DNA of 13,264 bases. It comes from Hyphomicrobiales bacterium (GTDB lineage Bacteria; Pseudomonadota; Alphaproteobacteria; Rhizobiales; Kaistiaceae). How positions within the stretch are numbered: position 1 is the first letter of the stretch; the number at the start of each line of letters is the position of its first letter. Under the pieces are notes generated by a model. The model was not told where the DNA came from. It saw only the letters and a program-made list of their open reading frames with translations, and made no database searches. Both the position numbers and the translations under genes were made by a program. This document shows positions 928 to 12,455 of this stretch, one piece after another. The DNA lies in the NCBI GenBank assembly GCA_017305815.1, contig JAFKJZ010000493.1, positions 1 through 13,264 on the forward strand, written 5' to 3'.

Positions 928-1189
928 GCGGCATCCCCCTTTGCAGAGCGACGAGCGGCCGCCCCGCGATTCCCCAAGCGTCTCATCGTGTCGGCCGCTG
1001 CCTCTTTAGGCAATATTGCAGCGCAACATTTAGTCACTTTCACATGCTGCTCTGCATCATCTGCAGCGCAGCCATGCGCATTTACGCAGTGCTCCTGCCA
1101 GTCGTCTTCCCCTACATTGAGATCAACAAGGACGGCAGACGAAACAGATTGAGCCGCCCGACCGAAAAGATCCGTTTGTCCGAAGGAAT
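928..1189. promoter_or_regulatory. divergent intergenic region before the DUF1127-sRNA unit
   Basis: These 262 nt separate two divergently transcribed genes and must hold promoters for both. I cannot point to a convincing sigma70 or RpoH-type promoter. Notable elements are a perfect 10-bp palindrome GCAATATTGC (1010-1019), which overlaps TTGCAGCGCAA (1016-1026), and TTGAGATCAA (1117-1126). The stretch is more A+T-rich near 1005-1045 than the flanking genes, which fits a regulatory region. These sites are observations only. Confidence 0.3.
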
Positions 1190-1348: not shown

Positions 1349-1366
1349 GCCGAATACGGAATTCGA

Positions 1367-1482
1367 CGGGAACGAACCTCCTCCCTCGTTCCCGCGATAA
1401 GGCGCCAGCGAACCTCCTCCCTCGCGAAGCGCCACCCAAAGAGAACGCCCGTCGACCTCCTCCCCGACGGGCGTTTTCTTTT
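1367..1482 (+). ncRNA. cuckoo / CcsR-like sRNA array: three hairpins with anti-Shine-Dalgarno loops
   Basis: Three consecutive stem-loops show the identical 10-nt loop ACCTCCTCCC on unrelated stems. Hairpin 1 has a perfect 9-bp stem (1367-1375/1386-1394, loop 1376-1385). Hairpin 2 has a 4-bp upper stem (1408-1411/1422-1425), an internal loop and a 5-bp lower stem (1401-1405/1429-1433), with its loop at 1412-1421. Hairpin 3 has a perfect 11-bp stem (1444-1454/1465-1475, loop 1455-1464) and runs into TTTTCTTTT. Conserved loops on different stems are evidence for RNA structure. The arrangement matches cuckoo RNAs of Rhizobiales and the CcsR sRNAs of Rhodobacter, which are co-transcribed with a DUF1127 gene, processed from it and linked to stress. 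The loop resembles the 16S rRNA anti-Shine-Dalgarno sequence and could pair with GGAGG-type sites in target mRNAs. The linkers 1395-1400 and 1434-1443 are possible processing sites. Targets are unknown. Confidence 0.85.
1444..1482 (+). terminator. intrinsic terminator formed by the third CCTCCTCCC hairpin
   Basis: AACGCCCGTCG (1444-1454) pairs perfectly with CGACGGGCGTT (1465-1475) around the loop ACCTCCTCCC. The stem runs straight into TTTTCTTTT (1474-1482). This is the strongest Rho-independent terminator in the window and defines the 3' end of the DUF1127-sRNA transcript. It also separates that transcript from trmFO. Confidence 0.85.
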
Positions 1483-1509
1483 GTCCGGGCCCAATCGCGA
1501 ACTGCGCGG

Positions 1510-1545: not shown

Positions 1546-2955
1546 ATGAAAACAGATCCCATTCACATCATCGGCGGTGGCCTGGCCGGCTCTGAAGCGG
1601 CCTGGCAGATCGTCAATCGCGGCATTCCCGTCGTCCTGCACGAGATGCGCCCGGTCCGTGCGACGGACGCCCACAAGACGGACGGCCTTGCCGAGCTCGT
1701 CTGCTCCAACTCGTTCCGTTCCGACGATGCAGACACCAATGCGGTCGGTCTGCTGCACGCGGAAATGCGCATGGCGAACTCGCTGATCATGCGCATGGGC
1801 GATGCCAACCAGGTGCCCGCCGGCGGCGCGCTCGCCGTCGACCGCGAGGGTTTCTCGCAGGCCGTCACCAAGGCGCTCGAGGAGCACCCCCTCGTCACCA
1901 TCGACCGCAACGAGATCGCCGGCCTGCCGCCAGCCGAGTGGGACAATGTCATCGTCGCCACCGGCCCCCTGACCTCGCCGGACCTCTCCGACGCGATCCG
2001 CGGCCTGACCGGCGCCGACGCGCTCGCCTTCTTCGACGCCATCGCGCCGATCGTCTATTTCGATTCGATCGACATGGACGTCGCCTGGTTCCAGTCGCGC
2101 TACGACAAGGTCGGCCCCGGCGGCAACGGCGCCGACTACATCAACTGCCCGATGGACGAGGCACAGTACAACGCCTTCCTCGACGCGCTGATCGCCGGCG
2201 ACACCACTGACTTCAAGGACTGGGAAGCCTCGACGCCCTATTTCGACGGCTGCCTGCCGATCGAGATCATGGCGAACCGCGGCCGCGAGACGCTGCGCTT
2301 CGGCCCGATGAAGCCGGTCGGCCTCACCAATCCGCGCAACCCGACCGTCAAGCCGCACGCGATCGTGCAGCTGCGCCAGGACAATGCGCTCGGCACGCTC
2401 TACAACATGGTCGGCTTCCAGACGAAGCTGAAATATGGCGCCCAGACCGACGTGCTGCGCATGATCCCGGGCCTGGAGAACGCGCAGTTCGCTCGTCTCG
2501 GCGGCCTGCATCGCAACACCTTCCTGAACTCGCCCAAGCTGCTCGATCCGCTGCTTCGTCTCAGGGCGCAGCCGCGCCTGCGCTTCGCCGGCCAGATCAC
2601 CGGCTGCGAGGGCTATGTCGAATCCGCCTCGATCGGCCTGCTGGCCGGCCGCTTTGCCGCCGCCGAGCGCCTCGGCGAGGTGCCGGTGACGCCGCCCGTC
2701 ACGACGGCGTTCGGCGCCCTGCTCGGCCACATCACCGGCGGCCATCTCGTCGACGAGGACGCTGGCAGCCGCTCGTTCCAGCCGATGAACGTCAATTTCG
2801 GCCTGTTCCCGCCGGTCGAGATCCCGCGCGAGCCCGGCGTGAAGCTGCGCGGCAATGACAAGGCGATTGCCAAGAAGAAGGCGCTCACCGCCCGCGCCCG
2901 CGCCGATGCCTCGGCCTGGCTGAACGGCCCGGCCTCGGTCGCCGCCGCCGAGTAG
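1546..2955 (+). CDS. trmFO: TrmFO, folate/FAD-dependent tRNA (uracil-54-C5) methyltransferase
   Basis: TrmFO uses methylene-tetrahydrofolate and reduced FAD to make m5U54 in the T-loop of cytosolic tRNAs. The 469-residue product has the expected family length. It opens with the Rossmann FAD motif [15 protein letters not shown] (residues 7-21). It carries the conserved [11 protein letters not shown] segment with Cys53, equivalent to the reported catalytic cysteine, and [20 protein letters not shown] with Cys236 at the second conserved cysteine position. [14 protein letters not shown] and the GLHRNTF and [16 protein letters not shown] blocks are also typical. I chose ATG 1546 because homology begins at [12 protein letters not shown]; an upstream in-frame start at 1510 would add 12 non-conserved residues and would lie inside the promoter candidate. 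No Shine-Dalgarno sequence precedes 1546. It is followed by a GC-rich hairpin and is probably monocistronic. Identification is firm. Confidence 0.97.
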
Positions 2956-3117: not shown

Positions 3118-4872
3118 ATGAAGCGCCCCTTTCTCCTGGTCCTGATCAAGCCCTCGCACTACGACGACGACGGCTATGTGATCCGCTGGTTCCGGTCGTC
3201 GATCCCCTCCAACTCGCTCGCCAGCCTCTATGGCCTCGCCGCCGATTGTGACGCGCGCAAGGTTCTGGGCGACGATGTCATCCTCGACATCCGCGCCATC
3301 GACGAAACCAATACGCGCGTCCGGATCGACCGGCTGATCGAGGAATTCCGCCAGAACGGCAATTTCGGACTGGTCGGGCTGGTCGGCGTCCAGTCGAACC
3401 AGTATCCGCATGCGCTCGATCTCGCGCGACCGCTGCGGGAAGCCGGCATCCCGGTGGCGATGGGCGGCTTCCACGTCTCGGGCTGCCTCGCCATGCTGCC
3501 GGACCTGCATGTCGACCTGCAGCAGGCACTCGACATCGGCGTCAGCCTGTTCGCCGGCGAGGCGGAGGAGCGGCTCGACCGCGTGCTGCTCGACGCCGCC
3601 GCCGGCACGCTGCAGCCGCTCTACAACTACATGAAGGAACTGCCGAGCGTCGAAGGCACGCCACCTCCCTTCCTGCCGGCCGGCTACGTCGCCCGCACGC
3701 TCGGCGGCAACACCTCCTTCGACGCCGGCCGCGGCTGCCCGTTCCAGTGCTCGTTCTGCACCATCATCAACGTCCAGGGCCGCAAGTCCCGCCGCCGCTC
3801 GCCGGATGACGTCGAGAAGCTGATCCGCGAAAACCTGGCGCAGGGCATCCACAACTACTTCATCACAGACGACAATTTCGCCCGCAACAAGGACTGGGAG
3901 ATCATCCTCGACCGCATCATCGCCCTGCGCGAGCGGGAGGGAATGCGCATCGGCCTGATGATCCAGGTCGACACGCTCTGCCACAAGATCCCCAACTTCA
4001 TCGCGAAGTGCAAACGGGCCGGCGTCACCCGCGTCTTCATCGGGCTGGAGAACATCAATCCGGACAACCTGATGGCGGCGAAGAAGCGCCAGAACAAGAT
4101 CACCGAATATCGACGGATGCTGCTCGACTGGAAGCGGCAGGGCATCATCACCTATGCCGGCTACATCCTCGGCTTTCCGAACGACACGCCGGAGAGCATC
4201 CGCCGCGACATCGGCATCATCCAGCGCGAGCTGCCGCTCGATATCCTGGAGTTCTTCTTCCTGACGCCGCTCCCCGGCTCGGAGGACCACCAGTCGCTGC
4301 ATCGCAAGGGCATCGCGATGGACGGCGACCTCAACAAATACGATCTCGAACATGCCGTGACTGGCCATGAGCGCATGTCGCAGCAGGAATGGGAAGGCAT
4401 CTATCGCGACGCCTGGCGGCTGTTCTATTCGCCGGAGCACATGGTGACGATCCTGCGCCGCGCCGCCGCCACCGGGGTGAGGACGACCAGCATCATGAAG
4501 CTCTTGATGTGGTTCTCGACCTCCGTCGACGTCGAGCACGTCCATCCGCTGCAGGGCGGCGTCCTTCGCTTCAAGGACCGGCTCGACCGCCGCCCCGGGA
4601 TGCCGATCGAGCCCGCCTGGCGCTTCTATCCGCGCGAGGCGCTCGAGACGGTCGCAAAAAGCGCCAGGCTACTGTGGCTGCTCGGCAAGCTCGAATGGAA
4701 GCGCCGCCGCATCGAGGCCAGTCCCGACAAGGCGCGCTACATGGACGCCGCGCTGATGCCCGTCGGCGAGGACGAGACCGAGACGCTGGAGATCTTCAAC
4801 CAGAGCGAGGCCGCGCGCGGCGCCGTCCGCCATGCCCACAACATCGACATACTGACGCACGGGGCGACGTGA
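3118..4872 (+). CDS. B12-binding-type radical SAM protein, function unknown
   Basis: This 584-residue protein has three parts. Residues about 1-165 resemble the Rossmann-like B12-binding domain of class B radical SAM enzymes (GLVGLVGVQSNQYPHAL, then GGFH at 116-119 and the LFAGEAEERL turn); the cobalamin-ligating DxHxxG motif is absent, which is common in this class. Residues about 197-400 are the radical SAM barrel with the [4Fe-4S] motif Cys207-x3-Cys211-x2-Cys214, followed by ITDDNFARN and the GLENINPDNL strand. Residues about 400-584 form a basic helical tail rich in Trp and Arg with no domain I recognise. ATG 3118 has GGGG (3107-3110) at 7-nt spacing; an upstream TTG at 3103 is less likely. 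It may be a methylase or other radical enzyme, but the substrate cannot be read from the sequence. It stands alone between trmFO and convergent genes. Confidence 0.88.
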   Translation: MKRPFLLVLIKPSHYDDDGYVIRWFRSSIPSNSLASLYGLAADCDARKVLGDDVILDIRAIDETNTRVRIDRLIEEFRQNGNFGLVGLVGVQSNQYPHALDLARPLREAGIPVAMGGFHVSGCLAMLPDLHVDLQQALDIGVSLFAGEAEERLDRVLLDAAAGTLQPLYNYMKELPSVEGTPPPFLPAGYVARTLGGNTSFDAGRGCPFQCSFCTIINVQGRKSRRRSPDDVEKLIRENLAQGIHNYFITDDNFARNKDWEIILDRIIALREREGMRIGLMIQVDTLCHKIPNFIAKCKRAGVTRVFIGLENINPDNLMAAKKRQNKITEYRRMLLDWKRQGIITYAGYILGFPNDTPESIRRDIGIIQRELPLDILEFFFLTPLPGSEDHQSLHRKGIAMDGDLNKYDLEHAVTGHERMSQQEWEGIYRDAWRLFYSPEHMVTILRRAAATGVRTTSIMKLLMWFSTSVDVEHVHPLQGGVLRFKDRLDRRPGMPIEPAWRFYPREALETVAKSARLLWLLGKLEWKRRRIEASPDKARYMDAALMPVGEDETETLEIFNQSEAARGAVRHAHNIDILTHGAT

Positions 4873-6435: not shown

Positions 6436-7259
6436 TCAGGCCTTGCCGGCCGCCTCCACGTCTTCCTTCTTCGTCATCTGGTCCGAGCGCACGCCGAAAT
6501 AGATCAGGATCGGCGCGGCCACGCAGACCGACGAGAAGATCGCCGCGAGCACGCCGAAGATCATGGCGAGCGTGAACGCCTGGATGACCTCGCCACCGAA
6601 CAGGTAGAGCGAGAACAGCGCGATCAGCGTCGTCACCGTCGTGATGACGGTACGGCCGAGCATGTCGTTGATGGCGCGGTCGATCAGGTCGCCGAGCGGG
6701 ATCTTCTTGTACTTTCGCAGCGTTTCGCGAATTCGGTCATAGACCACGACCGTGTCGTTCAGCGAATAGCCGATCGTCGTCAGGATGGCAGCGAGCGAGG
6801 TCAGATTGAACTCGTGCTGCGTGACGACATAGAAGCCGAAGGTCATCACCACGACGTTGGCGGCCGAGATGATCGAGCCGACGGCGAACTGCCATTCGAA
6901 GCGGAACCACACATAGATGGCGATAGCGGCGAAGGTCACCAGCATCGCCATGGTGCCCTTGTAGGCCAGTTCGCCCGAAACGCGCGGGCCGACGATTTCG
7001 GTCCGGCGGAACTCCGCCTGATCGGCGAGTGCCGTGCGGATCTTGGCGATGGCGGCCTGCTGGGCCTCCCCGCCGCCGGTCTGCTGGCCGCTGCGGATCA
7101 GGAGGTGCCGCCGAGGAAGTCGATGCCGTAGTTGGGGCCGACGGCGAAGAACAGGATCACCGACATCACCGACAGGAAGGCGGCGAGTGGAAACGTCCAC
7201 TTCCGCATCCGCATGAACGGGATGCTGGTGTTGTCAGGAACGATGCGAAGATGAGCCAT
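6436..7259 (-). pseudogene. secF: secF, protein translocase subunit SecF, broken by internal deletion and frameshift
   Basis: SecF pairs with SecD in the inner membrane and uses the proton gradient to finish export through SecYEG. From ATG 7259 the frame reads a normal start, including a first membrane helix (residues about 21-41) and NYGIDFLGGTS (44-53), then hits TGA at 7098-7100. The rest continues in another frame from about 7107 as LLIRSGQQTGGGEAQQAAIAKI, through VVGPR-type and GYSLNDTVVVYDRIRE motifs and five more helices to the stop at 6436. Compared with SecF of Escherichia coli and rhizobia as I recall them, about 35 residues between 'GGT' and 'LIR' (start of the periplasmic domain) are missing. 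The lesion is therefore a deletion of roughly 100-115 bp that also shifts frame, not a simple one-base slip. It lies 21 nt after secD. True mutation and assembly error both remain possible. Confidence 0.85.
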
Positions 7260-7280
7260 GGTTTCTGTCCTCGCTTCGGT

Positions 7281-8800
7281 TCAGAGCGTGATCTTGGTCG
7301 GACGGCGCCAACGCACCCACATCGCGACCAGGAGGCGGGTGAAGGTGAACGCCGTGAACATCGTCGTCGCGACGCCGATGGCGTGCGTGACGGCGAAGCC
7401 GCGGATCGGGCCCGACCCCATGTAGAAGAGCACGAGGGCTGCGATCAGGGTGGTCACGTTCGCGTCGAGAATGGTGCCGAGCGCCTTGTGGAAGCCGGCG
7501 TCGATGGACGCGATCGCCGATCGCCCTGCGCGATATTCCTCGCGTATGCGCTCATAGATCAGAACGTTGGAGTCCACCGCGGTGCCGACCGTGATGATCA
7601 CGCCGGCGATGCCGGGTAGCGACAGCGTCGCGCCCAGGATCGTCACGATGGAGAAGATCAGGATGACGTTCACGATCACCGCGATATTGGCGATCCAGCC
7701 CAGCACGCCATAGGTCATCACCATGAAGGCGCAGACCGCGGCGGTGCCGATGATGGCGGCGATCTTGCCGGAGCGGATCGAGTCGGCGCCGTGGCCGACT
7801 GGATCGAGAAATTGCCGGAGATCTGGCCGGAACCGCCGAGAATGGGCTCGCGGATGACCGGGGCCGAGATCACCTTGTCGTCGAGGACGATGGCGAAGGG
7901 CCGGTTGACGTTCTTAGCGGTGACGTCGCCGAAGACGCGCGCGCCGGAGCTCGAAAGGCGGAACGACACGACCGGCTCGTTGGTGCGCTGGTCGAAGGTG
8001 GCCTGCGCGTCGGTCAGGTCCTCGCCGGTGAGGAGCGGCGCTTCCTCGAGCACGTAGGGAACCGGCGGGTTGTCGTTCGAGTTCAGGACGATGGTGCCCG
8101 GCTTGCGCGTGTCGGCCGTCGGCGAAACGCCGGTATCGACGAGGTGGAAGGTCAGCTGCGCGGTCTGGCCGACGAGCGTCTTCAGGCGCTCGGGATCGTC
8201 GAGGCCGGGCGCCTCGACGAGGATGCGGTCCGAGCCCTGACGCTGGATCGACGGCTCGACGGTGCCAAGCTGGTCGATACGGCGGCCGATGACCTCGATC
8301 GACTGATCGACGATCTGGCGGATGCGCTGCTCAAGGCCGGCTTCCGAATAGGACATCTGGACCAGGCCGTCGCTGCCGACGTTCAGGTCGAATTCGTTGA
8401 CGGCCGTGCCACCGAGCGCTGACGTGGAAAGCTGGTTGCGCAACGGCTCGAGGCGCTTGCGCACCTCGTCGAGCTGCGACAGGTCCCGGACGCGGAGCTG
8501 CACGCCCTGCCCCTGGACACCGAGGCCCGAATAGCCGATGCGCGGCTCCTGCAGCATCGCCTTGCGGATGTCGCCCACGAGCGAACGCAGGCGCTTCTGC
8601 ACGTAATCCTGCCGATCCACCTCATAGAGGAGATAGGCGCCCCCCTGGAGATCCAGGCCGAGGACCATTTGCCGTTTCGGCACCCAGCTCGGCCAGGATT
8701 GAACGGTTTCCTTCGAGAAGAGATTGGGAAGCGCCGCGAGGAGCCCGACCACCACGACGGCCAGGATCGCAATCATCTTCCAGCGTGTAAAGTGCAGCAT
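7281..8800 (-). pseudogene. secD: secD, protein translocase subunit SecD, broken by internal deletion and frameshift
   Basis: SecD is the large partner of SecF in proton-driven protein export. From ATG 8800 the product is normal for about 334 residues: first membrane helix (9-28), MVLGLDLQGGAYLLYEVD (45-62), the periplasmic domain with IGRRIDQLGTVEPSIQRQG, and IREPILGGSGQISGNFSIQS. After QSA (about 7794) the reading frame is lost and stops at 7718. The continuation lies in a different frame from about 7799 as VGHGADSIRSGKIAAI, then the membrane half with TVGTAVDSNVLIYERIREE to the stop at 7281. Homologues have about 30 extra residues here, the conserved LRAGALPAPL...ERTVGP segment, so roughly 90 bp is missing. 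The bases AGTCGGCCA (7792-7800) read plausibly in both frames and may be microhomology at the junction. The preceding gene is yajC; together with the secF lesion this points to recent decay or misassembly. Confidence 0.87.
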
Positions 8801-9530: not shown

Positions 9531-10415
9531 GTGACAGAAGATACGCTGAAATCCGTCGCCGATCGTCTCGACCGGCTGATCGCCCTGATCGAGCGCGCCG
9601 TACCGCCGGCACGCCCTGCCTTCGACCCCGACGCCGCCGATGCCTTCGTCTGGCAGGCCTCGACCGGCACGCTGCAGCCGGTGCCGAAGGTCAATCGCGT
9701 CGAGATGGTGCTTCTGAAGGGCGTCGACCGCGTGCGCGACATCCTGGTCGACAACACCGATCGCTTCGCACGCGGCCTGCCGGCCAACAACGTCCTGCTC
9801 TGGGGCGCGCGCGGCATGGGCAAGAGCTCGCTGGTGAAGGCGGCGCATGCGACGATCAACAGCGACCCGTCCAAGCTGCCGGGCGGCCATCCGATGAAGC
9901 TGGTCGAGATCCACCGCGAGGACATAGACAGCCTGCCCGAGCTGATGACGCTGGTGCGCGGGCTCGACCGCCGCTTCATCCTGTTCTGCGACGATCTTTC
10001 CTTCGACAACGACGACACGTCCTACAAGTCGCTGAAGGCGGCGCTGGACGGCGGCGTCGAGGGCCGGCCCGAGAACGTCGTGTTCTACGCCACGTCGAAC
10101 CGGCGCCACCTGCTGCCGCGCGACATGATGGAGAACGAGCGCTCGACGGCGATCAATCCCGGCGAGGCGGTCGAGGAGAAGGTTTCGCTTTCGGACCGTT
10201 TCGGTCTCTGGCTCGGCTTCCACAAGTGCAGCCAGGACGATTATCTCGCCATGGTCAACGGCTATGCCGAGCACTTCAAGCTGGATGTGGCCCCGGAGGT
10301 CCTGCGCGCCGAGGCCCTCGAGTGGTCGACGACGCGCGGCGCGCGGTCTGGCCGCGTCGCGTGGCAATATGTGCAGGATCTGGCGGGACGACTTGGGGTC
10401 GCTCTTACGGGCTGA
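9531..10415 (+). CDS. DUF815 AAA+ family ATPase
   Basis: This 294-residue cytoplasmic protein is a single-domain P-loop ATPase of the DUF815 (YcbB-like AAA+) family. The Walker A motif is GARGMGKSS (residues 92-100), Walker B is RRFILFCDDLSF (147-158), the sensor-1 type strand is VVFYATSNRRHLLP (183-196), and SDRFGLWLGF (221-230) probably carries the arginine finger. The N-terminal helix of about 60 residues and the FVWQASTGTLQPV segment are typical of this family. The start is GTG 9531: GAGGAA (9518-9523) lies 7 nt upstream and the conserved text begins at TEDTLKSVADRLDRL. An ATG at 9524 is out of frame, and longer upstream starts add non-conserved residues. The cellular role is unknown; genes of this family often neighbour yajC-secDF in alphaproteobacteria, which may only reflect conserved order. 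Confidence 0.92.
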   Translation: MTEDTLKSVADRLDRLIALIERAVPPARPAFDPDAADAFVWQASTGTLQPVPKVNRVEMVLLKGVDRVRDILVDNTDRFARGLPANNVLLWGARGMGKSSLVKAAHATINSDPSKLPGGHPMKLVEIHREDIDSLPELMTLVRGLDRRFILFCDDLSFDNDDTSYKSLKAALDGGVEGRPENVVFYATSNRRHLLPRDMMENERSTAINPGEAVEEKVSLSDRFGLWLGFHKCSQDDYLAMVNGYAEHFKLDVAPEVLRAEALEWSTTRGARSGRVAWQYVQDLAGRLGVALTG

Positions 10416-10537: not shown

Positions 10538-10584
10538 GACCAAGGCCGTTCAGCGTTTACCAGAAACGATGAACGGCCTTGGTC
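10538..10584. terminator. bidirectional terminator-like hairpin, 14-bp perfect stem
   Basis: GACCAAGGCCGTTC (10538-10551) pairs perfectly with GAACGGCCTTGGTC (10571-10584) around a 19-nt loop. It ends two nt from the nlpD-like stop codon and lies 122 nt after the DUF815 stop, between convergent genes. U-tracts are weak on both sides, so it may act as a bidirectional barrier or stabilise 3' ends. Confidence 0.6.
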
Positions 10585-10586
10585 GG

Positions 10587-12086
10587 TCAGCCCTGCAGGT
10601 AGTCCAGCGGGTTGACCGGCTTCGAGCCCCTGCGAAGCTCGAAATGAAGCTGGGGCGCATTCACCGAGCCGGACGCACCCGCCTGCGAGATGATCTGGCC
10701 GCGCCGCACGGAATCGCCGCGCTTGACCAGGATCTTGCTGTTGTGGGCGTAGGCCGAGACCCAGCCGTCGGCGTGACGGACGAGGACCAGGTTGCCGTAG
10801 CCCTCGAGTTCATTGCCGGCATAGATCACGGTGCCGGCCTCGGCGGCCTTGATCGAGGTGCCTTCCGGAACGGCAAGGTTGATGCCGTCGTTCTTTTCGC
10901 CCGTCGCCGAAGCACCGAAGCCGGTGATGATGCGGCCGCGCACCGGCCAGCGGAACGTCGTGCCGTTGGCGGAACCCGGATCGGCGCTGGCGTTGGTCGC
11001 GGCCGGCGGGTCCTCGGTCGGCGGCGCATAGGCCACCGGCTGGTTCGGCGTCGCGGGCTTGGCGATCGAAGCCGTCTCGACCGGCTTGGCGACGCTGGCC
11101 GTCGTTGCCGGCTCCTCCACCGACTTCTGCGGCGCGTTTGCGGCGACCGGCTTGGCGTTCGGATCCTCGCCCTGCGGCTTCTCCTCGCGGCGCGACGGAT
11201 CGGTGCGAAGCGCGACGGCCTGCGGATTGCCGTTGTTACCGGGAATGCGGAGCTTCTGGCCGGACTTTAGCTGGTTCGTCGAGGACAGGCTGTTGGCGGC
11301 CGCAAGGTCCTTGGCGCTGACACCATAGAGACGGGCGATCGAGGACAGCGTCTGACCGGGCGAAACCGTGTGCACACCGTTCAACGAGCCCTCGGCGGAG
11401 GCGACCGGCTTGCGCTCGCCGGCCGGCGCGGGACCGGCAACCAGCTGGGTGCTGTCACGGCTCTGCGGCGACGAGGCGGCGGGCGCCTCGGCGACGGCGG
11501 CGCCGCCGCCCTGGCCATAGGTCGGGATCGTCAGGCGCGTGCCGGCGCCGACCTGCGAGGGATTGCCGATATTGTTGACGCGGGCCAGTTCCTTGATCGG
11601 AACGCCATAGCGACGCGAAACGGAAGAGAGCGTCTCGCCGGGGCCGAGCGTCACGACGGTGCCGCCCTCGGTCGACCAGGCGCCGTTGCGGCGCGGCGGC
11701 TGGGCAGCGGACGCAACCTGCATCGGCTGGGCGTCGGCCGGCGGCGTATAGCCACGCGGCGCGGGCGTTTCATAGGAAGGGGCTGCCGCCACGGCCTGCG
11801 GGTTCTGCTGGGTGCCTGGCAGCATCGGCGGCAGGTCCGAACGGCTCACGGCGCGCGACGGCGGCGGAACCGCAACGACGTCGCTGTTGCTGGCGCCGTA
11901 GTCCACCGGAGCGGGCATCGGCTGCGAACCGCCGATGATCTGCCGCTGATTGGCGGTACTGCCGGTGAAGATCGAGCCGTAGCGCGAACCGTCAGCGCTG
12001 CAGGCAGCGGTCAAGCCCGAAAGGAGCGCGATGACCGCAACCTGGGAGAGAGTCCGAGACCGAAAAGAGGAGACATTTCTGCACAT
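10587..12086 (-). CDS. NlpD/DipM-like lipoprotein, LysM x2 and degenerate M23 (LytM) domain
   Basis: This is a 499-residue envelope protein. ATG 12086 gives a signal peptide with a candidate lipobox LTAAC (Cys29), although Thr at -3 is unusual. It has LysM repeats at about 143-189 and 239-282, a long Pro/Ala-rich linker, and an M23/LytM domain at about 378-496. The M23 metal site is degenerate: where active enzymes have H-x3-D this protein reads NDGIN (Asn399, Asn403), and the HxH motif reads QLH (Gln479, His481); His448 in SAYAHNS is kept. NlpD and EnvC show the same loss, so I infer an activator of cell-wall amidases at division and not a peptidase. Its place after pcm matches the pcm-nlpD pairing of many proteobacteria. 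A start at 12179 is possible but would bury the signal peptide. Usual automatic names are 'peptidoglycan DD-metallopeptidase family' or 'M23 family peptidase'. Confidence 0.9.
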   Translation of the reverse strand: MCRNVSSFRSRTLSQVAVIALLSGLTAACSADGSRYGSIFTGSTANQRQIIGGSQPMPAPVDYGASNSDVVAVPPPSRAVSRSDLPPMLPGTQQNPQAVAAAPSYETPAPRGYTPPADAQPMQVASAAQPPRRNGAWSTEGGTVVTLGPGETLSSVSRRYGVPIKELARVNNIGNPSQVGAGTRLTIPTYGQGGGAAVAEAPAASSPQSRDSTQLVAGPAPAGERKPVASAEGSLNGVHTVSPGQTLSSIARLYGVSAKDLAAANSLSSTNQLKSGQKLRIPGNNGNPQAVALRTDPSRREEKPQGEDPNAKPVAANAPQKSVEEPATTASVAKPVETASIAKPATPNQPVAYAPPTEDPPAATNASADPGSANGTTFRWPVRGRIITGFGASATGEKNDGINLAVPEGTSIKAAEAGTVIYAGNELEGYGNLVLVRHADGWVSAYAHNSKILVKRGDSVRRGQIISQAGASGSVNAPQLHFELRRGSKPVNPLDYLQG

Positions 12087-12455
12087 CGAGCCAACTCGCA
12101 ACGCCACACCACACATGAGGCCAATAAACGCCGGTAACGTTGATAAAGGCTTAAACGGGACGCAAAACTTCGTCGGCATTGCACAATCCCGCGAATTTTC
12201 CGCCGCAGGATGCCGCGCTTCCTGCCCTAGGGCGCCCTGCCGCCCGGTTAAGAATCGTCCGGCAAAACAAGGCGGAAAGCCGGCCCCGGTGCGGTCGGTT
12301 CAGGCCAGAACATGAAGGCGGGCGAAGCCGAACGCCCGCACGCGGGACGCGAGACATCGGACGGAACCCTGCCTCTGCGAAGCCCGCGTCCGGCATCGCG
12401 ATTGGGTGCCTACAGGAATATCCAAGAATGAAGGGGGGCGCAGCACCACGCCGAA
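12087..12455. other. intergenic region between pcm and the nlpD-like gene
   Basis: These 369 nt separate two minus-strand genes and should hold the promoter of the nlpD-like gene and possibly the pcm terminator. I see no coding frame that I trust. A 7-bp hairpin lies at 12318-12339 and the palindrome GCCCTAGGGC at 12224-12233. A+T-rich stretches near 12120-12165 are the likeliest promoter position, but no clear -35/-10 pair stands out. Confidence 0.4.
12318..12339 (-). terminator. hairpin downstream of pcm
   Basis: GCGGGCG (12318-12324) pairs with CGCCCGC (12333-12339) around an 8-nt loop, 117 nt after the pcm stop codon. The following minus-strand text is only mildly U-rich (CTTCATGTTCT), so termination is uncertain. 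Confidence 0.35.

Follow-up and report, generated by a model that had tools for sequence, protein, structure and literature searches.

We analysed a 13,264-nucleotide (nt) contig of a draft genome of a Hyphomicrobiales bacterium from the family Kaistiaceae (hereafter the window), in which a short DUF1127 gene is followed directly by a three-hairpin array of the ar14 (cuckoo) small RNA (sRNA) family and then by trmFO (Table 1). The motif CCTCCTCCC lies on the plus strand at 1377-1385, 1413-1421 and 1456-1464 and has no other copy on either strand of the window; at least three copies were reached in 0 of 200 dinucleotide shuffles (mean 0.11). All three loop 10-mers read ACCTCCTCCC, and RNA folding of 1349-1484 gives three hairpins whose loops are exactly these 10 nt, with a minimum free energy of -63.4 kcal/mol against -37.06 for shuffles (standard deviation 3.53, z -7.46, 0 of 200 as good). 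The first-pass annotation, made from the letters alone, had described three identical loops on three different stems, and this is borne out. Its 9-base-pair (bp) stem of hairpin 1 (followed by 3 bp beyond a bulge) and its two-part, nine-pair stem of hairpin 2 (5+4 bp) are also confirmed, whereas its 11-bp stem of hairpin 3 is only the GC-rich core of a 17-bp stem with an A/U-rich extension. Because of these 17 pairs and the T-rich tail, hairpin 3 is a likely terminator, as had been proposed; a terminator pattern scan of 700-2200, which considered loops of 3-8 nt only, returned none, and hairpin 3 with its 10-nt loop is not in its output. The array holds three similar 19-nt tandem copies, and GTTTTCTTTTG stands at 1473 within the hairpin 3 region.

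Table 1 Features of the DUF1127-ar14 locus (positions in the window)
Feature	Position	Strand	Basis
DUF1127 small protein gene, 52 amino acids	1190-1348	+	PF06568, 51.6 bits, cut-off 23.3
ar14 (cuckoo) sRNA array, three hairpins	1358-1479	+	RF02344, 68.4 bits, E 6.4e-11
Loop 1, ACCTCCTCCC	1376-1385	+	Sequence, motif count, RNA folding
Loop 2, ACCTCCTCCC	1412-1421	+	Sequence, motif count, RNA folding
Loop 3, ACCTCCTCCC, within terminator hairpin	1455-1464	+	Sequence, motif count, RNA folding
Terminator-like hairpin and T-rich tail	1438-1483	+	Arms 1438-1454 and 1465-1481; RNA folding
LsrB-type box, TGCATCATCTGCAG	1053-1066	+	One mismatch to published TGCA-N6-GCAT
VtlR-type box, reads AGCGCAGCCATGC on the plus strand	1065-1077	-	Exact match to GCAT-N3-TG-N3-T
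Candidate promoter core	1089-1117	+	GTGCTC (1089-1094), 17 nt, CTACAT (1112-1117); read from sequence
trmFO, conserved downstream neighbour	1546-2955	+	NCBIfam TrmFO equivalog above cut-off; synteny

The array belongs to the ar14/NfeR1 (cuckoo) family, a kind of sRNA that is already known. Its score with the ar14 covariance model (RF02344, Rfam release 15, model positions 1-123) exceeds the gathering threshold of 58.8 bits, while CcsR1 (RF02791) scores 27 bits against a threshold of 65.3, and membership in CcsR was rejected on this ground. The cuckoo-type identity suggested at first thus stands and the CcsR identity does not. The Rfam scan of the window gave no ar15 (RF02345) match. Published descriptions of ar14 RNAs give them three hairpins that share an identical, ultraconserved CCUCCUCCC motif on strongly differing stems (PMC10746234). 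Here, too, CCUCCUCCC is unpaired in the loops of three hairpins with variable stems, except that the stems of hairpin 3 are nearly invariant in the genus. Three loops are the published ar14 norm (PMC10746234), so that the copy number, singled out in the first-pass annotation as worth comparing, is ordinary, and single loci of named genomes carry up to nine CCTCCTCC motifs. As had been noted, the array sits directly behind the DUF1127 gene, whose stop codon lies 9 nt before the start of the ar14 model. The window thereby has the composition defined for a CIN1 locus, that is, a short DUF1127 gene with CcsR- or cuckoo-like RNAs (PMC10253847); both the ar14 family and this link of DUF1127 with such RNAs were known before.

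Conservation of the loops and of the trmFO neighbourhood

Sixty-one genomes were searched, namely 14 of the genus, 14 of other members of the family and 33 of other members of the order, and 79 of the 82 ar14 matches were analysed. At E<=0.001, ar14 was found in 37 of the 61 genomes (14/14 in the genus, 13/14 in the rest of the family and 10/33 in the rest of the order), and it exceeded the family cut-off in 23. The genome under study has three DUF1127-ar14 loci, which are the window, a second locus on contig C222 and a third on contig C106 that is cut by the contig end (34.1 bits), together with four further weaker ar14 matches. A DUF1127 gene precedes ar14 in 43 of the 46 matches within the genus. 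One strong array of the same genus (L163, G013:C3, 76.7 bits) has no detectable DUF1127 gene ahead of it and may represent a separate instance of a stand-alone array.

The loop comparison covers 43 of the 46 genus loci, all except L127, L149 and L122, the last of which lies at a contig end. The loop was the same as in the window in 30 of the 43 for hairpin 1, 39 for hairpin 2 and 32 for hairpin 3. Of the 13 departures in hairpin 1, seven belong to the C222 paralog group and four have a shortened loop; hairpin 2 has four departures, and ten of the 11 in hairpin 3 read ATCTCCTCCC. Covariation of the arms was judged hairpin by hairpin in the 36 of these loci that have three 10-nt loops each, since a shuffle that pools the three hairpin types inflates the contrast and was not relied on. 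Hairpin 2 shows 19 distinct arm pairs, with double changes and zero broken pairs at each of the four loop-proximal positions and frequent unpairing at positions 5-7; its mean pairing was 5.16 of 7, against a shuffle mean of 3.81 and maximum of 4.68. Hairpin 1 has 14 arm pairs and a pairing of 5.79, above the shuffle maximum of 5.43, and every position includes one to four broken cells; hairpin 3 is uninformative on covariation because it has two arm pairs only. In hairpins 1 and 2, then, the stems vary and co-vary while the loops are more constrained. The first-pass annotation had read the identity of the loops on unrelated stems as selection on the exposed loop, which is supported for these two hairpins, the barely varying third being of little weight here. 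It had named as a refutation the loss of loop identity in close relatives with conserved stems; the reverse was seen, since most loops are retained and the stems of hairpins 1 and 2 are variable. Elsewhere in the family, some genera have loops shortened toward a TCCTCCC core, and therefore the 10-nt form is not universal.

One ar14 copy lies directly 5' of trmFO in every genome of the genus (14/14), the present one included. We also collected a named set of 80 trmFO loci from named genomes (the best 80 of 592 matches), in which 37 loci carry ar14 above the gathering threshold, on the strand of trmFO, within the upstream stretch (mostly 2.5 kb). The seven loci of Mesorhizobium carry a pair of DUF1127 genes followed by two or three arrays and finally trmFO; loci of Phyllobacterium, Oricola, Labrenzia and Roseibium show the DUF1127-ar14 layout, and DUF1127 genes come after one or two stand-alone arrays in Sinorhizobium and in several of the Rhizobium loci. 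Other Rhizobium trmFO loci of this set have no ar14 over the cut-off, and those of Bradyrhizobium, Methylobacterium and Microvirga have DUF1127 without ar14 over the cut-off. Expanded arrays were seen 5' of trmFO (L027, L047, L073, L072); their CCTCCTCC motifs number nine both in Mesorhizobium jarvisii and in Pseudaminobacter arsenicus, seven in Aurantimonas, and eight in Pleomorphomonas. The locus studied here is otherwise ordinary for its order.

A putative LsrB/VtlR-type promoter upstream of DUF1127

The published VtlR box is GCAT-N3-TG-N3-T (PMC7486931), given for Brucella as CAATGCAGCCATGCA (PMC12595884), and the LsrB box at NfeR1 is TGCA-N6-GCAT (PMC10746234). A block about 125 nt 5' of the DUF1127 gene contains an exact VtlR box and an LsrB box one mismatch off. 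The distance from the start of the LsrB-type box to the -10-like hexamer is 59 nt in the window and 58 nt at a stand-alone ar14 of Sinorhizobium glycinis, and by eye the promoter-core-like layout recurs in two paralogous loci and many loci of the genus. A generic sigma-70 scan of 700-2200 found no promoter. Judged by its box sequences, the promoter in the window looks like an LsrB/VtlR type, and binding of the regulator is predicted.

Boxes were counted in the 200 nt 5' of the first DUF1127 gene of each operon, using 43 DUF1127-bearing operons for the genus (a different set from the 43 loci of the loop comparison) and omitting DUF1127 genes with less than 150 nt upstream or preceded by another DUF1127 gene. 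An exact VtlR or LsrB box is present in 32/43 operons of the genus, 8/10 of other genera of the family, 2/2 elsewhere in the order and 23/23 (21 loci) of named genomes. The exact LsrB box alone occurs in 11/43 genus operons, and the VtlR box is absent from both order-level operons. For each box alone, none of 200 letter-permuted decoys matched the observed count in the genus, family or named sets; the best decoys in the genus reached 15/43 (VtlR) and 7/43 (LsrB).

A DNA profile of the promoter, built from 53 loci of the genus and family, gave 58 matches at E<=0.1 (30 at E<=0.001) in the named set, that is, among the best 80 of 592, and 0 in one block-shuffled copy of that set. Of 48 plus-strand matches, 47 end at most 131 nt 5' of a DUF1127 gene (34) or an ar14 array (13), compared with a random mean of 3.96. 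The 13 on the ar14 side include stand-alone arrays of Sinorhizobium, Ensifer, Rhizobium and kin, and in three of them the promoter block extends into the start of the array, as it does in two stand-alone Agrobacterium arrays (E 0.0053 and 0.033). A plus-strand match lies 5' of the array in 21 of 30 ar14 loci, some of them overlapping, from the named genomes. In sequence, the DUF1127-ar14 promoters are thus similar to those of stand-alone rhizobial ar14.

The genome has one LsrB ortholog, which shares 59% identity over residues 4-302 and is alone in matching at E<=1e-60; its gene adjoins a thioredoxin reductase gene, likewise in S. glycinis. Directly 3' of this lsrB (G000:C466, L249) lies an ar15-like stretch of 23 bits, under the cut-off, with CCCTCCTCCC and an exact VtlR box upstream; it is likely a divergent AbcR that scores too low for the Rfam ar15 threshold. 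Five other genomes of the family yielded no ar15 at E<=0.001. In S. glycinis the profile matches the first AbcR after lsrB (E 0.0038) and leaves the second unmatched. By gene order, from the coordinates in PMC7143759, these two would be AbcR1 and AbcR2, and in S. meliloti AbcR1 was reported to be LsrB-dependent and AbcR2 not (PMC8844928). Activation of AbcR1 by LsrB/VtlR was described in S. meliloti (PMC8844928) and A. tumefaciens (PMC7486931). The S. glycinis match is one favourable case and no proof.

Proposed function, alternatives and origin of the locus

We consider it probable that the array is a trans-acting ar14 (cuckoo, NfeR1-like) sRNA in the 3' untranslated region (3' UTR) of the DUF1127 mRNA, driven by LsrB/VtlR, whose loops block Shine-Dalgarno sites. 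Family membership, the conserved loops, the co-varying stems of hairpins 1 and 2, the operon layout, the box conservation, the trmFO synteny and the LsrB ortholog are observed; transcription, processing, LsrB binding and targets are the parts that we infer. One promoter 5' of DUF1127, most likely activated by LsrB/VtlR (a redox regulator of the LysR type), would produce a DUF1127-ar14 transcript that starts near 1124, as judged from the -10-like hexamer, and ends at hairpin 3. Because the gap to DUF1127 is only 9 nt, the array is most likely cut from the DUF1127 mRNA, and by analogy with the Rhodobacter CcsR case an endonuclease such as RNase E would free it. Each exposed CCUCCUCCC loop would then base-pair with Shine-Dalgarno sites resembling GGGAGGAGG and prevent translation, and the repressed mRNAs would probably include those of binding proteins of ATP-binding cassette (ABC) transporters, among others. 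DUF1127 itself should escape its own RNA, because AAGGA and not GGAGG stands before its start. In the published mechanism of the family, the sRNA pairs in antisense with individual mRNAs where their translation begins (PMC10746234), and the general competition with 16S rRNA suggested in the first-pass annotation does not agree with this. On contig C87 of the genome, a GGGAGGAGG site is found 5 nt ahead of the ATG that opens an open reading frame (ORF) with a signal like that of twin-arginine translocation (22.1 bits, under the 22.7 cut-off), and its next piece, in a different frame of the assembly, matches Peripla_BP_6; binding proteins are the reported target class of NfeR1 (PMC10746234). The pattern GGAGGAGG-N4-10-ATG has 17 listed matches (16 places) in the genome and 2 in the reversed control, many of them opening short ORFs, and the genome-wide target signal is otherwise weak.

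Several observations weigh against this interpretation. The scanned stretch of 11/43 genus operons has no exact box, one of the counted boxes (L150, at -221) is out of position, and the box and locus counts within the genus are not independent because the loci are related by descent. A box is also present at 47 of 75 DUF1127 genes unlinked to ar14, and therefore belongs to the DUF1127 promoter generally; the ar14 array appears to ride on it. A plus-strand profile match is missing at nine of the 30 ar14 loci examined in the named genomes, and three of the 46 genus matches have no DUF1127 gene ahead (L127 and L149, both weak, and the strong L163). AbcR expression was reported as unchanged in an S. 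meliloti lsrB mutant (PMC7486931), which contradicts PMC8844928. The profile misses the abcR region of Agrobacterium (L227, L233, L241), where abcR1 was reported to be VtlR-dependent (PMC7486931), and also the lsrB/AbcR-like region of the present genome (L249). As to targets, exact GGGAGGAGG sites before an ATG number 5 in the genome against 1 in a reversed-pattern control, and the ORFs behind these five have 432 (frame-broken), 405, 141, 98 and 35 amino acids, the first one being annotated. The ntrB leader matches GAGGAG only, while an eight-nucleotide pairing was predicted for the S. meliloti ntrB leader (PMC10746234).

The same array could instead be driven by an RpoH heat-shock sigma factor, as in the ccaF1-CcsR operon of Rhodobacter, with the LsrB-like boxes decorative or serving another start. 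The RpoH1 dependence of S. meliloti AbcR2 (PMC8844928) speaks for such control, but we regard it as unlikely, as the block 5' of DUF1127 shows by eye boxes of the LysR-type transcriptional regulator kind, a 17-nt spacer and a CTAYAT-like -10, and of the two S. glycinis AbcR promoters its profile matches the first only. An array that acts mainly in cis, terminating the DUF1127 mRNA and stabilising its 3' end, and whose loops are recognised by the DUF1127 protein or by ribosome-associated factors instead of pairing with other mRNAs, is in our view quite unlikely. It would fit the direct adjacency of array and gene, the terminator-like last hairpin and the report that the DUF1127 protein CcaF1 participates in processing the sRNAs of its own operon (PMC10253847); however, the loop is an exact anti-Shine-Dalgarno stretch, a terminator needs fewer than three loops, stand-alone ar14 without a DUF1127 gene ahead exists, and the NfeR1 loops silence mRNAs in trans (PMC10746234). 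That the array consists of chance C-rich repeats or of a mobile repeat beside the gene, similar to repetitive extragenic palindromic sequences or miniature inverted-repeat transposable elements (REP/MITE-like), is hardly credible in spite of its three similar 19-nt tandem copies: the stems differ and co-vary, the array precedes trmFO in 14/14 genus genomes, and chance repeats were rejected because none of the 200 dinucleotide shuffles reached three copies of the motif.

Compared with known systems, the LsrB/VtlR-driven trans-acting sRNA proposed here is similar to NfeR1 (Smr14C2, RF02344) in its three hairpins, CCUCCUCCC loops, divergent stems and upstream LsrB-type box (here one mismatch off), but NfeR1 stands alone with its own LsrB-activated promoter at the RNA start, whereas here the DUF1127 ORF lies between promoter block and array. 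At the trmFO-linked ar14 of S. glycinis, TGCA-N6-GCAT lies 71 nt before the model start, and for S. meliloti NfeR1 a position of -72 to -60 from the transcription start was published (PMC10746234); the S. meliloti nfeR1 gene itself could not be placed beside trmFO. The CIN1 locus of Rhodobacter sphaeroides likewise has a DUF1127 gene (ccaF1) and then CcsR-like RNAs (CcsR1-4) in one operon; its promoter, however, is of the RpoHI/RpoHII kind (PMC10253847), while the evidence here points to LsrB/VtlR, and the CcsR1 model scores far below its threshold. AbcR RNAs (ar15, RF02345) share anti-Shine-Dalgarno motifs and ABC-transporter targets with the array, and differ in that the window has no ar15 match and the 23-bit ar15-like stretch of the genome sits beside lsrB. 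DUF1127 genes regulated by VtlR in Brucella and Agrobacterium (atu1667, orthologous to two of these genes) are also small genes behind a VtlR box, but the accessible portions of PMC7486931 and PMC12595884 mention no anti-Shine-Dalgarno array behind them.

The shared promoter type hints at a common origin of two regulatory circuits that were studied separately. We tentatively propose, giving this somewhat less than even chances, that stand-alone rhizobial ar14 genes such as NfeR1 and the DUF1127-ar14 operons derive from one ancestral locus 5' of trmFO under one LsrB/VtlR promoter. In the Rhizobiaceae this promoter would have come to sit directly at the array, so that an RNA once processed from a 3' UTR became an sRNA in its own right, and DUF1127 would have retained a promoter copy for itself. 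The locus offers a concrete way to test how an RNA of a 3' UTR can turn into a free-standing sRNA. It also allows a test of the targets of DUF1127 proteins, which may be the RNAs whose genes lie behind their own or may be reached through protein partners, as reported for Agrobacterium (PMC12501420). If the proposal is true, LsrB would co-produce a possible RNA-binding protein and an RNA family that this protein may help to mature. The proposal joins the VtlR/LsrB control of small DUF1127 genes with the LsrB control of anti-Shine-Dalgarno sRNAs, which the literature, in its accessible portions, treats apart. In a literature search whose reach may not have extended to the central papers or to the spelling of ar14 with a Greek alpha, we found neither LsrB/VtlR, DUF1127 and ar14 joined, nor an LsrB/VtlR-type promoter on DUF1127-ar14, its likeness to the stand-alone promoters and the trmFO anchoring together. 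The shared LsrB/VtlR-type promoter is the part most worth testing.

Elsewhere in the window, a large radical-SAM (S-adenosylmethionine) protein gene lies shortly 3' of trmFO (3118-4872, plus strand). The secD/secF region on the minus strand (6436-8800) is in broken frames, with SecF-type pieces at 7098-7259 and 6436-7200 and SecD-type pieces at 7718-8800 and 7281-7724; these are possibly assembly errors of the draft genome, and caution applies to the other frames of the window. A long, near-perfect hairpin without a T-run (10538-10584) sits between a plus-strand ORF ending at 10415 and a LysM/M23 peptidase gene (10587-12179), and the microRNA label that Rfam gives it is far under the cut-off.
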